38,628 nt of DNA from Acidimicrobium ferrooxidans DSM 10331. Its GTDB lineage: Bacteria > Actinomycetota > Acidimicrobiia > Acidimicrobiales > Ilumatobacteraceae. Positions 5,738-10,877 of this stretch are shown in pieces; the first letter of the stretch is position 1, and each line of letters opens with the position of its first letter. The translations under genes and the position numbers were made by a program. Where the stretch lies: positions 1 through 38,628 of the forward strand of contig CAMDJX010000005.1 of NCBI GenBank assembly GCA_945900735.1, written 5' to 3'. The notes under the pieces were generated by a model. The model worked only from the letters and a program-made list of their open reading frames with translations, was not told the origin of the DNA and made no database searches.

Positions 5738-6921
5738 TGAAAACCACAGATTTTTTACTGCGTGCATTTAAAAAACCCCGCACCGCTAATGCAGGGCTGA
5801 ACAATAGTTATGCCGACCCAGTTCGCAACATCGACTGGATTTTGATGGCGGCGATGGCTGCGCAGGCCGTGATCGGTTTGTTCACGGTTTTTTCTGCAAC
5901 CCATTTGCGCCTTATTGATCAGCGCTTCGATCCTTATGTGTATACGCAACGACAGGTGTTGTTTGTTATTGCGGGAATCGCCGTTCTTTCAACCGTCATG
6001 GCACTTGGTCACGACTGGTTCCGTACACAAAGCGGAGTGTTGTACGGCGGTGTCATTGTTCTGTTGATTCTGGTGCTTGCAACTGGTGCTGTAACTGGTG
6101 GCGCACGACTGGCATTCGACTTGGGCCCGATTTCACTTCAGCCAGCCGAGTTTGCAAAGCCGCTGATTTTGGTATTGATCGCTAGCTATCTCAGCGAATC
6201 TGCCATTGACGGAATTGATTGGCATCAGTTTGTGATGACTCTGTACATGGTGTTAGCACCGTGTGCGCTGATTTTGTTACAGCCAGACCTTGGCTCCGCA
6301 TCGGTTATCTTGGCTGGCGTTGCGGGTGTGTTGTACGTAGGACAAGCACGGCGAAGATACTTGCTGCTTATCGCGGCAATGTCCGTCGGGTCTGTTGCGG
6401 CATCGATTGTTGCAGTGCCAAGCCTTCGCTATCAGTTGCGTCGATTTGATGCGTGGTTTAATCAAAACTCGTTCGACAAAGATTTGGAACAAATCGTGTT
6501 GCAAGTGCGATTTGCTAAACGTGCAGTATCGACCGGGGGAGTCTTTGGAAAGGGCTATCTCAACGGTCCCCTCACCAACGGAAAGTACATTCCAGTGCAA
6601 TTCACCGACTTTCCTTTTTCTGCCATCGGCGAACAATTCGGGATGATCGGTGGCGGTGTGGTGATCGCCCTCTTTTGCGTCATCTTGTGGCGAATCTGGC
6701 GCATCGCGCGGATGGCCCGAGACCGATACGGATTCTTTTTGGCTACTGGTGTCTTCACCATGGTGGTGTGGCAGGTCTTCCAAAACATTGGCATGACGTT
6801 GGGGGTCACCCCAGTGAGCGGCCTTCCTTTGCCCTTCATTTCCTATGGGGGCTCTCATCTGGTGTCTACCGCGGTGCTGTTTGGGCTGGTGCAGAGCATC
6901 CATATGCGCCGTCTGCAATAA
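5737..6921 (+). CDS. rodA: SEDS glycosyltransferase RodA
   Basis: GGARLAFDLGPISLQPAEFAKPLILV...QPDLGSASV...VTPVSGLPLPFISYGGS: SEDS family motifs. Confidence 0.95.
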   Translation: MKTTDFLLRAFKKPRTANAGLNNSYADPVRNIDWILMAAMAAQAVIGLFTVFSATHLRLIDQRFDPYVYTQRQVLFVIAGIAVLSTVMALGHDWFRTQSGVLYGGVIVLLILVLATGAVTGGARLAFDLGPISLQPAEFAKPLILVLIASYLSESAIDGIDWHQFVMTLYMVLAPCALILLQPDLGSASVILAGVAGVLYVGQARRRYLLLIAAMSVGSVAASIVAVPSLRYQLRRFDAWFNQNSFDKDLEQIVLQVRFAKRAVSTGGVFGKGYLNGPLTNGKYIPVQFTDFPFSAIGEQFGMIGGGVVIALFCVILWRIWRIARMARDRYGFFLATGVFTMVVWQVFQNIGMTLGVTPVSGLPLPFISYGGSHLVSTAVLFGLVQSIHMRRLQ

Positions 6922-6955
6922 GGGCCTACGTAAATTCTGCCTAGAAAGCCGAGTT

Positions 6956-7121
6956 CCGCCGCGGGCGGGGGGATATCCTGACTGACAGGAAGGGCATTGG
7001 GCCCCTCCAAAGGTCGTACACGCGATAGCGATTCGGGCGATAGGGAAACCTATGGCCGGTAGCGCTGGACCGCGACGATAGTGCGTGTGGTGGGCATCGT
7101 TGCCGCCTCGGATGCGCTATC
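6956..7121 (+). ncRNA. Candidate structured 5' leader of the RNase E/G gene (may also contain the rodA terminator)
   Basis: Hand-found stems: CCGCC/GGCGG (6956-6960/6964-6968); TCCTG-ACTGA-CAGGA (6976-6990); GGGC/GCCC (6992-6995/7001-7004); ATAGG-GAAA-CCTAT GNRA hairpin (7040-7053) extended by GGC/GCC; long-range GATAGCG/CGCTATC (7024-7030/7115-7121). Confidence 0.45.
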
Positions 7122-7145
7122 CAAGTAAGGAAACGAGCAAGCAAC

Positions 7146-8975
7146 ATGAGTGAGATGAGCGCAGGGGCTTCTGTCCCCGAGCAGCCAAAAGGCACGACGT
7201 CGGGCGAACCGCAAAATGGCGCCCAGGTTCCTGGCGGCCCGAAGAAGCGCCGCCGCGGTCGCCGCGGTGGACGTAACCGCAACCGCACACGCACGGGTGG
7301 CACCAACCCGGCAGCACCTGCAAACGATTCGGTGCAGGCTGCACCCCGCGTGGCAAGGGCACCAAGGCCAGCAACTTCCGAGGTGGAGCTTCCCGATCCT
7401 CCCCAAGAAGGCAAGATGGCAAGCCCCGAGGCAGTCAATGACGCGCTTGTACGCAAGCCTCAAATCGGTGACACCCGCCCGGCTCCTGCTTCTGCACTTG
7501 CCAAACCGGTCGTCGGCGCTGCAAATGGCCAGCGAAACGAAGGTTCTGAAGAAAAGCCACGGAGCAAGAACCGCCGCGGCGGCAAACGAGGCGGACGCAA
7601 TCGCCGAGGCCGAACACCGCGAAGTGAAGATGCGTCGAACGTCGTTGTCGGTACCGACGCCGAATTGATCGAACGCCGACGCGGCAAGGAGCGCAACGGA
7701 AAAGCTGTTGGTCGCTACCTCATGTGCGTGCAAGTGAGCGGCGATTTAACGCAGGTCGCTGTGCTCGAAGGTCGCAGTCTTATCGAGCATTATGTTTCGC
7801 GCCCCGCCGATGATGATTTGCAGATTCACGGCAACATTTACCTAGGCCGAGTACAAAATGTTTTGCCGGGTATGGAAGCGGCATTCGTCGATATCGGAAC
7901 GCAGAAGAATGCCGTTCTGTATCGAGGCGACGTGCAGTTTGACAAGGAAGACGTTGTCGAGCAGGGCCCAGACCCACGTATTGAGCAGGTGTTAAAAGCG
8001 CGGCAAATGATTTTGTGCCAAGTTACGAAGAACCCCATCGGCGCAAAGGGTGGCCGCCTGACACAAGAAGTTTCACTTCCTGGTCGATTCGTTGTGCTCA
8101 TCCCGGATTCGCGCACGTACGGAATTTCTAAACGACTTCCAGAAGGCGAGCGTCGACGCTTGCGCGGCATCCTCGACCGCATTAAGCCCGAGCAGCACGG
8201 AATTATTGTTCGAACTGCTGCAGAGAACGCAACCGAGCACGAACTCACCACCGACCTCACGCGACTAATCGAGCAGTGGGACCTCATTCGCAAACAAGCA
8301 GAAAAAGCCTCAACGCCATCACTGTTGTACCGCGAACCACCATTGGCAGTGCGCGTGATTCGTGAAGAATTCAGCAGCGACTATCGCGGCATTGTCATTG
8401 ACGATCCCCAGTTGTTTGCCGAGGTTCGCGATTACATCTCCGCATTCAACCCAGAATTCGCGGATCGTGTCGAGCTATTTGACGCCGCCAAAGAAGGCCT
8501 GCCATTGTTCGAGCAGTATCGCGTACACGAGCAGTTGCGTAAAGCGCTTGATAAAAAGGTTTGGCTACCAAGCGGTGGTTCGCTGATCATCGAGCACACC
8601 GAAGCGCTCAGCGTTATCGACGTGAACACTGGCAAGAACGTCGGAAAGTCGAATCTTGAAGAGACCGTATTCCACAACAATCTTGAGGCCGCCGAGGAAA
8701 TTGCACGTCAGTTGCGGCTCCGGGATATTGGCGGAATCATCGTCATCGACTTCATCGACATGGAGATTCGTGAGAATCGTCGCAAAGTACTTGAAGCCTT
8801 CAAGAGTGCACTTTCGCGAGACAAGACGCGCACCCAGGTTTTCGATATTTCCGAACTTGGTCTGGTCGAAATGACTCGCAAACGCATAGGCGAGGGCTTA
8901 TTGACGAATTTTGCAGAGGCCTGTGCGGCATGTGAGGGCCGTGGAGTGCTCATCGACATGTCGATGCTTGATTAA
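7146..8975 (+). CDS. rne: Ribonuclease E/G family endoribonuclease with N-terminal Arg/Gly-rich extension
   Basis: YLGRVQNVLPGMEAAFVDIGTQKNAVLY (S1-like), SVIDVNTGKNVGKSNLEETVFHNNLEAAEEIARQLRLRDIGGIIVIDFIDM (DNase I-like subdomain); upstream of rplU/rpmA. Confidence 0.95.
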   Translation: MSEMSAGASVPEQPKGTTSGEPQNGAQVPGGPKKRRRGRRGGRNRNRTRTGGTNPAAPANDSVQAAPRVARAPRPATSEVELPDPPQEGKMASPEAVNDALVRKPQIGDTRPAPASALAKPVVGAANGQRNEGSEEKPRSKNRRGGKRGGRNRRGRTPRSEDASNVVVGTDAELIERRRGKERNGKAVGRYLMCVQVSGDLTQVAVLEGRSLIEHYVSRPADDDLQIHGNIYLGRVQNVLPGMEAAFVDIGTQKNAVLYRGDVQFDKEDVVEQGPDPRIEQVLKARQMILCQVTKNPIGAKGGRLTQEVSLPGRFVVLIPDSRTYGISKRLPEGERRRLRGILDRIKPEQHGIIVRTAAENATEHELTTDLTRLIEQWDLIRKQAEKASTPSLLYREPPLAVRVIREEFSSDYRGIVIDDPQLFAEVRDYISAFNPEFADRVELFDAAKEGLPLFEQYRVHEQLRKALDKKVWLPSGGSLIIEHTEALSVIDVNTGKNVGKSNLEETVFHNNLEAAEEIARQLRLRDIGGIIVIDFIDMEIRENRRKVLEAFKSALSRDKTRTQVFDISELGLVEMTRKRIGEGLLTNFAEACAACEGRGVLIDMSMLD

Positions 8976-9060: not shown

Positions 9061-9372
9061 ATGTACGCAGTAATCGCAACCGGAGGCAAGCAAGAAAAAG
9101 TCGCCCAGGGCCAACAGGTCCAGGTCGAACTTCTTGGCGCCCAAGAAGGCACCGTGGTGAAGTTCACCCCAGTGCTACTCGTCGACGGAACAACCGTCCT
9201 TTCAACGCCAGCAGAATTGGCGAAGGCAACAGTTACTGCAACCATTATTGGTCAGGCTGCAGGCCCAAAGATCGACGGTTTCACATACAAGCGTCGTACC
9301 AACCAGCGTCGTCGTTTCGGACACCGCCAAAAGTATTCGGTGATTGAAATCACCAGCATCGCGAAAGGCTGA
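9061..9372 (+). CDS. rplU: 50S ribosomal protein L21
   Basis: [23 protein letters not shown]...[24 protein letters not shown]. Confidence 0.97.
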
Positions 9373-9663: not shown

Positions 9664-10830
9664 CTAGTTCGTATCGATACCTTTCGGTAGTCGGTCAACG
9701 CCCCAACCAAGAAGCACTGATCCTTGTCTGCACGCGAAACGATCGGTCATGCCCCCAACGTAGGCAACAGCATCGTGCAGCGCTTCGTCGCTATTGGCGA
9801 TTGGAATATTGCTGGTTGGGGATTGTTCGGTGAACATGTCCTCGGGGCGCGCACGGTAGTGCTCCACAAGTGCGCGCAGTAAGTCGATGACAGCTTTCGC
9901 TTGGTTGCGTGAAGCATCGCGCATGTAAATGTTTTCGTAGTTAAAGCGACGAAACTCGGCGAGTGCCTCTGCGGGTAACGACTCCATGCCGATTCGGCCG
10001 GACTGGGCGCTTGCTCTGATCATTGATGTGATGAATGCACGAAGCTGACTCGAACGAGTGAAGCCACATTGCGTGGCGACAATTTCTGGCAGTTGTTGCG
10101 GTGAAACAATGCCGGCGGCGACAGCATCCTCGAAGTCGTGACAAACATAGGCAATGCGATCGGCCCACGAAACCACTTCGCCTTCTGGTGTCATTGGCGC
10201 AGGGCGCGACCAAGAATGATTGCGAATGCCATCCAATGTTTCGACGCACAAGTTGAGAGGAACCAACGTGACATCGGCGCCCCAGAGCGCGTGATCGAAG
10301 CCATGTGCAACGAATGGAGAGAGCGCGTCCTCGCTGGCGTGACCACCAGGGCCATGCCCGCAATCGTGCCCGAGCGCGATGGCTTCAGTAAGCATGGTGT
10401 TGAGCCCGAGTGCACGCGAGACAGCAACGGCCACTTGCGCAACCTCGAGAGCGTGTGTGAGCCGAGTGCGTTGATGATCTTGGGGAAAGACGAAGACTTG
10501 AGTCTTTCCGGCGAGCCGACGAAATGCGGAAGCGTGAAGAATGCGATCGCGGTCGCGCTCGAAGCACGTGCGATAGTCGTCGGCCTGTTCGGCGATTGCT
10601 CGGTTGCCGGCACCCAATGCGCGAGTTGCTAACGGTGCAAGTTGCGCGTCTTCACGCGCCTCGCGCTCTGCGCGCGACACGATGTTGGTAGAGCCAGCGC
10701 CCGCCCAAGAATCGGCATGAGCGAAGATAATTCCATCAGGTGAGTGGAAGCCGTGCATTGTGCTGGCCCATGACTGGGCACGAGACCCTGATGGGTCCTG
10801 AGGCTGTGCAGACTTGTTGACCTCATTCAT
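9664..10830 (-). CDS. dgt: Deoxyguanosinetriphosphate triphosphohydrolase-like HD-domain protein
   Basis: FERDRDRILHASAFRRLAGKTQVF...RTRLTHALEVAQVA...ALGHDCGHGPGGH: HD-domain dGTPase signature. ATG at 10830 with GGAG upstream preferred over GTG at 10839. Confidence 0.9.
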   Translation of the reverse strand: MNEVNKSAQPQDPSGSRAQSWASTMHGFHSPDGIIFAHADSWAGAGSTNIVSRAEREAREDAQLAPLATRALGAGNRAIAEQADDYRTCFERDRDRILHASAFRRLAGKTQVFVFPQDHQRTRLTHALEVAQVAVAVSRALGLNTMLTEAIALGHDCGHGPGGHASEDALSPFVAHGFDHALWGADVTLVPLNLCVETLDGIRNHSWSRPAPMTPEGEVVSWADRIAYVCHDFEDAVAAGIVSPQQLPEIVATQCGFTRSSQLRAFITSMIRASAQSGRIGMESLPAEALAEFRRFNYENIYMRDASRNQAKAVIDLLRALVEHYRARPEDMFTEQSPTSNIPIANSDEALHDAVAYVGGMTDRFACRQGSVLLGWGVDRLPKGIDTN

Positions 10831-10877
10831 AATCTCCACGATACGAGCAGGGTGTCGCAGTAGCCTAGAAAGCCCCT

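Follow-up and report, generated by a model that had tools for sequence, protein, structure and literature searches.

A conserved structured RNA leader upstream of the RNase E gene in a genus of Ilumatobacteraceae

RNase E is the master RNA-degrading enzyme and sets the pace of RNA decay. To our knowledge, feedback control of this enzyme through the leader of its own mRNA has been established in few lineages only. The window analyzed here, a 38,628-nt stretch from an Ilumatobacteraceae genome, raises the question of whether the gap between rodA and rne encodes a leader of this kind. If an actinobacterial family has a further, unrelated rne leader, the case for a repeated independent origin of such control is strengthened, and the covariance models built from it supply a defined RNA for testing.

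A conserved RNA in the rodA-rne gap

At 1.64 Mb (136 contigs), the source genome is small, and named relatives retrieved by search point to the Ilumatobacteraceae (Acidimicrobiia). The gene order in the window is mreB-mreC-mreD-pbp2-rodA, then rne and rplU, with obg further on. An HD-domain gene (positions 9664 to 10839, minus strand) is located between the rplU region and obg. The rodA stop codon at 6921 and the rne ATG at 7146 leave 224 nt between them, as stated in an initial annotation of this DNA, and each helix arm that it quoted is present where it was placed. The coordinates of all features are collected in Table 1.

Table 1. Features of the rne locus and its leader (positions in the window)
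Feature	Positions	Strand	Evidence or composition
Predicted -10 element TATCCT	6974..6979	+	8-9 nt upstream of P1
Structured rne 5' leader	6986..7145	+	DNA conservation, covariance model matches, covariation, fold z -3.39
P1, hairpin at predicted 5' end	6988..7008	+	6988-6990/7006-7008, 6992-6995/7001-7004
Linker AAAGGTCGTACA (AAGGTCGATCA in relatives)	7009..7020	+	Mostly single-stranded (predicted)
P2, two-part helix enclosing P3	7021..7074	+	7021-7024/7071-7074, 7026-7030/7063-7067
P3, variable hairpin inside P2	7036..7057	+	7036-7038/7055-7057, 7040-7044/7049-7053
P4, long hairpin	7077..7121	+	7077-7087/7109-7121 with bulge; inner stem 7089-7096/7101-7107
Ribosome-binding region AAGGAAACGAGCA	7127..7139	+	Conserved; GGAAACGAGC invariant in 16 seed leaders
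rne	7146..8975	+	609-aa RNase E/G family; Pfam PF10150, E 5e-105; NCBIfam TIGR00757, E 1.4e-142
rplU (L21)	9061-9372	Same as rne	Downstream of rne

The gap encodes a genuine, evolutionarily conserved, cis-acting structured RNA at about 6986 to 7148. A DNA search found positions 6988 to 7186 to be conserved across the genus (g1) at 67 to 88% identity. With a covariance model built from 16 seed leaders of g1 (model R1), the leader was detected in front of rne in 20 of the 23 genomes of the genus, in a single copy each; three of these 20 are non-seed genomes, with E values of 1e-14 to 1e-16, and in all three the match is just upstream of rne. The genomes that the model missed are two assemblies without a detected rne and one with a divergent leader, and wherever genus assemblies cover the locus, the leader is directly upstream of rne. 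A covariance model search of the order found no further copies, and no relative of rne was found in viral contigs. Weak matches in two genomes of other genera (G133 and G196) were not at the rne locus, and a third (G099) was partial, spanning 52 positions; all three were treated as chance. At the level of the covariance model, conservation is limited to one genus, with weak similarity in two others.

Aligning the rodA-rne gaps of relatives and testing for covariance, a check proposed in the initial annotation, yielded both conservation and covariation, and these, together with the fold of the predicted transcript, bear out its claim that the rne leader is structured. Its suggestion that the leader is unrelated to the enterobacterial rne5 element agrees with the Rfam searches, in which nothing relevant, rne5 included, was matched in the window at the gathering threshold or in positions 6800 to 7400 by cmscan at E values up to 10. 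No description of the g1 rne leader RNA was found in the literature. The leader is a previously unlisted and unrelated RNA of a known kind, the structured cis-regulatory rne leader. A conserved reading frame was considered as well; the length of the P3 region differs between relatives by numbers that are not multiples of 3, which argues against it.

Fold of the leader and predicted start of its transcript

A secondary structure backed by compensatory change, the mark of a structured rne leader, was found among 18 distinct sequences: 97.4% of cells are paired, 15 of the 33 modelled pairs show two-sided change, none of 500 shuffles reached that number, and controls with slid partner strands came nowhere close, although these figures are not probabilities, because the sequences were aligned to the model itself and the shuffles take no account of relatedness. 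In the seed MAFFT alignment alone, which is not model fitted, two-sided change occurs at 3 pairs and in 13 cells, of which the cell count is above all shuffles and the pair count is not. The predicted transcript (6986 to 7148) folds more stably than its shuffles (z = -3.39; 0 of 200), and in the window this fold yields the same helices as the comparative fold. The fold of the entire gap has no excess stability (z = -0.70), because it takes in sequence upstream of the promoter. Since chance can also be expected, roughly, to yield a perfect 7-bp helix within some 200 nt, a single sequence proves little here.

The helices differ in how they are supported. P1 is paired in 100% of cells, with two-sided change at two pairs in divergent members of the genus, and the linker that follows it is nearly invariant in g1, with a related TCGAT motif after P1 in two other genera (g4 and g9). 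P2 is paired in 98 to 100% of g1 cells and is mostly invariant there, and the covariation that supports it is therefore found mainly in g4, where the equivalent helix shows compensatory changes. The stem of P3 is retained across clades while its sequence is replaced. This is the ATAGG-GAAA-CCTAT hairpin of the initial annotation, whose stem is therefore real and kept in relatives of different sequence; its GNRA loop is not conserved, being found only in the window and in the closest relative. Taken leader by leader, the P3 fold reaches significance in some cases only (mean z of about -1.5), and several folded intervals exceeded P3. P4, which ends just before the ribosome-binding region, shows two-sided change at 12 of its 17 pairs among the 18 distinct sequences. 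The CGAG of the ribosome-binding region can pair weakly with 7014 to 7016, a hypothetical helix P0 that is present in the minimum-energy fold.

Two long-range helices, 7024-7030/7115-7121 and 7018-7023/7083-7088, had been proposed to interleave as a pseudoknot or to alternate as a switch. Both are perfect in the window sequence, but they are broken in most of the 15 distinct relatives: the first shows no covariation and has one pair mismatched in 13 of the 15, and two of the six pairs of the second are broken, in 13 and 14 of the 15. Both also compete for bases with P2 and P4, the helices that the relatives support, and we regard a pseudoknot or switch of this form as hardly credible.

The transcript is predicted from sequence to start at about 6985 to 6988. 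In almost every leader among 19 representatives from g1, g4, and g9, a TAnnnT element keeps a constant spacing to P1, the counterparts of the putative -10 element of the window in relatives being TAGCCT, TAACCT, and TAGGCT. A generic sigma-70 scan found no full promoter, so the -10 assignment rests on this conservation. A start downstream of this element would place P1 at the extreme 5' end of the mRNA and leave the hairpins before position 6980 outside it. Of three short hairpins noted earlier near rodA, only the last, which is P1, is conserved; the other two either run into the promoter-like element or lie ahead of it. Conversely, a start downstream of about 7060, which would leave the helices out of the transcript and which the initial annotation had named as evidence against its leader, is unlikely, because in three genera the TAnnnT element lies just upstream of P1. 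The leader is contiguous from P1 to the start codon and contains neither a terminator-like site nor a U-run.

Proposed role of the leader

The likeliest role of the leader, on which our judgment is evenly balanced, is to place RNase E synthesis under feedback control, an autoregulatory role such as the initial annotation had suggested. The rne mRNA would start near 6986 and bear a folded, cis-acting 5' leader of about 160 nt, in which P1 would shield the extreme 5' end from 5'-end-dependent decay, P2, P3, and P4 together would make up a folded domain immediately before the ribosome-binding site, and conserved stretches on either side of it, one reaching back to P1 and the other on to the start codon, would be single-stranded. 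When abundant, RNase E would presumably recognize this leader and bind or cleave it, and the direction of control would probably be negative, its own mRNA decaying faster or being translated less. Such feedback would operate as it does in Escherichia coli, through an unrelated RNA. The proposal draws on analogy with rne5 and rne-II, with the rne leaders of E. coli and Synechocystis, which mediate or reflect autoregulation (PMC10989929), and with the destabilizing 5' region of rne in Mycolicibacterium.

The main rival is a constitutive leader that stabilizes or insulates the mRNA and so fixes its stability and translation level without feedback. Three genera retain a hairpin of the P1 type at their predicted 5' end, and P3 is free to change in sequence provided that the stem remains; both would fit such a leader. 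However, the near-invariance of the unpaired positions 7009 to 7020 and 7127 to 7138, together with the compensatory changes that maintain P4, and in g4 P2 as well, suggests more than a generic shield, and we consider this reading unlikely.

A further reading is a translational switch, in which GGUCG (7012 to 7016) would pair with CGAGC (7134 to 7138), close a junction over P2 to P4, and mask part of the ribosome-binding region, with a protein or ligand as the controller. Both arms are invariant in g1, and the pairing appears in the minimum-energy folds of the window and several relatives as well as in the consensus fold. Arms that never vary are nevertheless beyond the reach of covariation, the ribosome-binding region pairs with the coding start instead in three leaders (L007, L011, and L015), and the pairing is not recognizable in g4 and g9, which leaves the switch quite improbable. 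Binding of the leader by L21 or another ribosomal protein is suggested by the position of rplU, which follows rne on the same strand. We judge it very unlikely, since the leader precedes rne rather than rplU and matches no Rfam family, ribosomal-protein leaders included.

Other genera and known rne leaders

The 18 leaders of g4 contain a hairpin, the TCGAT motif, a helix with an inner hairpin, a further hairpin, and the ribosome-binding site, which is the order found in g1. Covariation in these leaders is independent (8 pairs, reached in 0 of 500 shuffles) and includes the P1-like hairpin. The g4 model (R2) matched 25 genomes, all from g4 and with one copy each, and g9 has a comparable leader. 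Model R1 finds no g4 or g9 leaders and R2 finds no g1 leaders, so the case for homology at the family level is built on the order of the helices, the TCGAT motif, and pairwise similarity, for which tests among the three genera were mixed (0 to 692 of 1,000 shuffles were as good, and only some pairs were significant). A common origin of the g1, g4, and g9 leaders is likely.

Elsewhere in the family the gap takes other forms. In g40, g10, g42, and others, the preceding gene runs almost up to the rne start and leaves no space for a leader; likewise, in relatives with larger genomes, another gene abuts rne and there is no leader (L099 to L105, L112, and L119 to L121; g40 included). The gene ending just before rne in g40 and the larger-genome genera is presumably of the TIGR03936/DUF2344 type, and leaders occur where the abutting gene is absent. 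Genus g48 (L109 to L111, L243 to L246, L253, and L254) has a different conserved hairpin leader, in which CATGGCGCGC-loop-GYGCGACGTG is invariant and directly precedes the ribosome-binding site of rne. In g13 (L106, L108, and L237 to L242), the rodA-rne gap holds an open reading frame of about 70 to 80 codons that crosses the rne start in another frame; it begins roughly 9 nt after a -10-like element, is apparently leaderless, and encodes peptides that are similar in several species (for example, MST-TPVVLTVF-VAIATIRLQNVG). A separate observation concerns a contig titled as a Bifidobacterium breve metagenome-assembled genome (L133, CAMBWL010000011.1), which encodes an Ilumatobacteraceae-type RNase E (82% identity); the title looks wrong.

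One tentative reading, which we think clearly less probable than its opposite, is that in streamlined Ilumatobacteraceae, which lack the genes found between rodA and rne in larger-genome relatives, rne is served by a promoter of its own and by several distinct RNA leaders. Its members would be the related three-part leaders of g1, g4, and g9, the other hairpin leader of g48, and the overlapping leaderless open reading frame of g13. If true, posttranscriptional control of RNase E would have been reinvented repeatedly within one family.

Among known systems, rne5 of enterobacteria is the obvious comparison: RNase E binds a stem-loop of this leader and thereby feedback-regulates rne. Like rne5, the g1 leader belongs to the 5' UTR of an RNase E gene, folds into multiple hairpins, and would be expected to control RNase E synthesis in cis. 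It differs in having no Rfam match up to an E value of 10, in belonging to another phylum, in a length of about 160 nt rather than 361 nt, and in a response to RNase E that we infer, whereas the enzyme of E. coli is feedback regulated through its own 361-nt 5' UTR (PMC10989929). The rne 5' UTR of Synechocystis, likewise a long leader, is itself cleaved by RNase E (PMC10989929); it has a U-rich cleavage site and shows premature termination, in contrast to the g1 leader with neither U-run nor terminator-like site. The rne gene of Mycolicibacterium smegmatis, also actinobacterial, is preceded by a 5' UTR of 236 nt, and replacing the native rne promoter and 5' UTR lengthened the half-life of rne mRNA (PMC10641625); this species belongs to a distant actinobacterial class. 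A second conserved RNA associated with rne, rne-II (RF01756), has been described from Pseudomonadales (PMC2864571). The g1 leader does not match it up to an E value of 10 and differs from it in lineage and sequence, but the two are alike as independent conserved RNA structures associated with rne.
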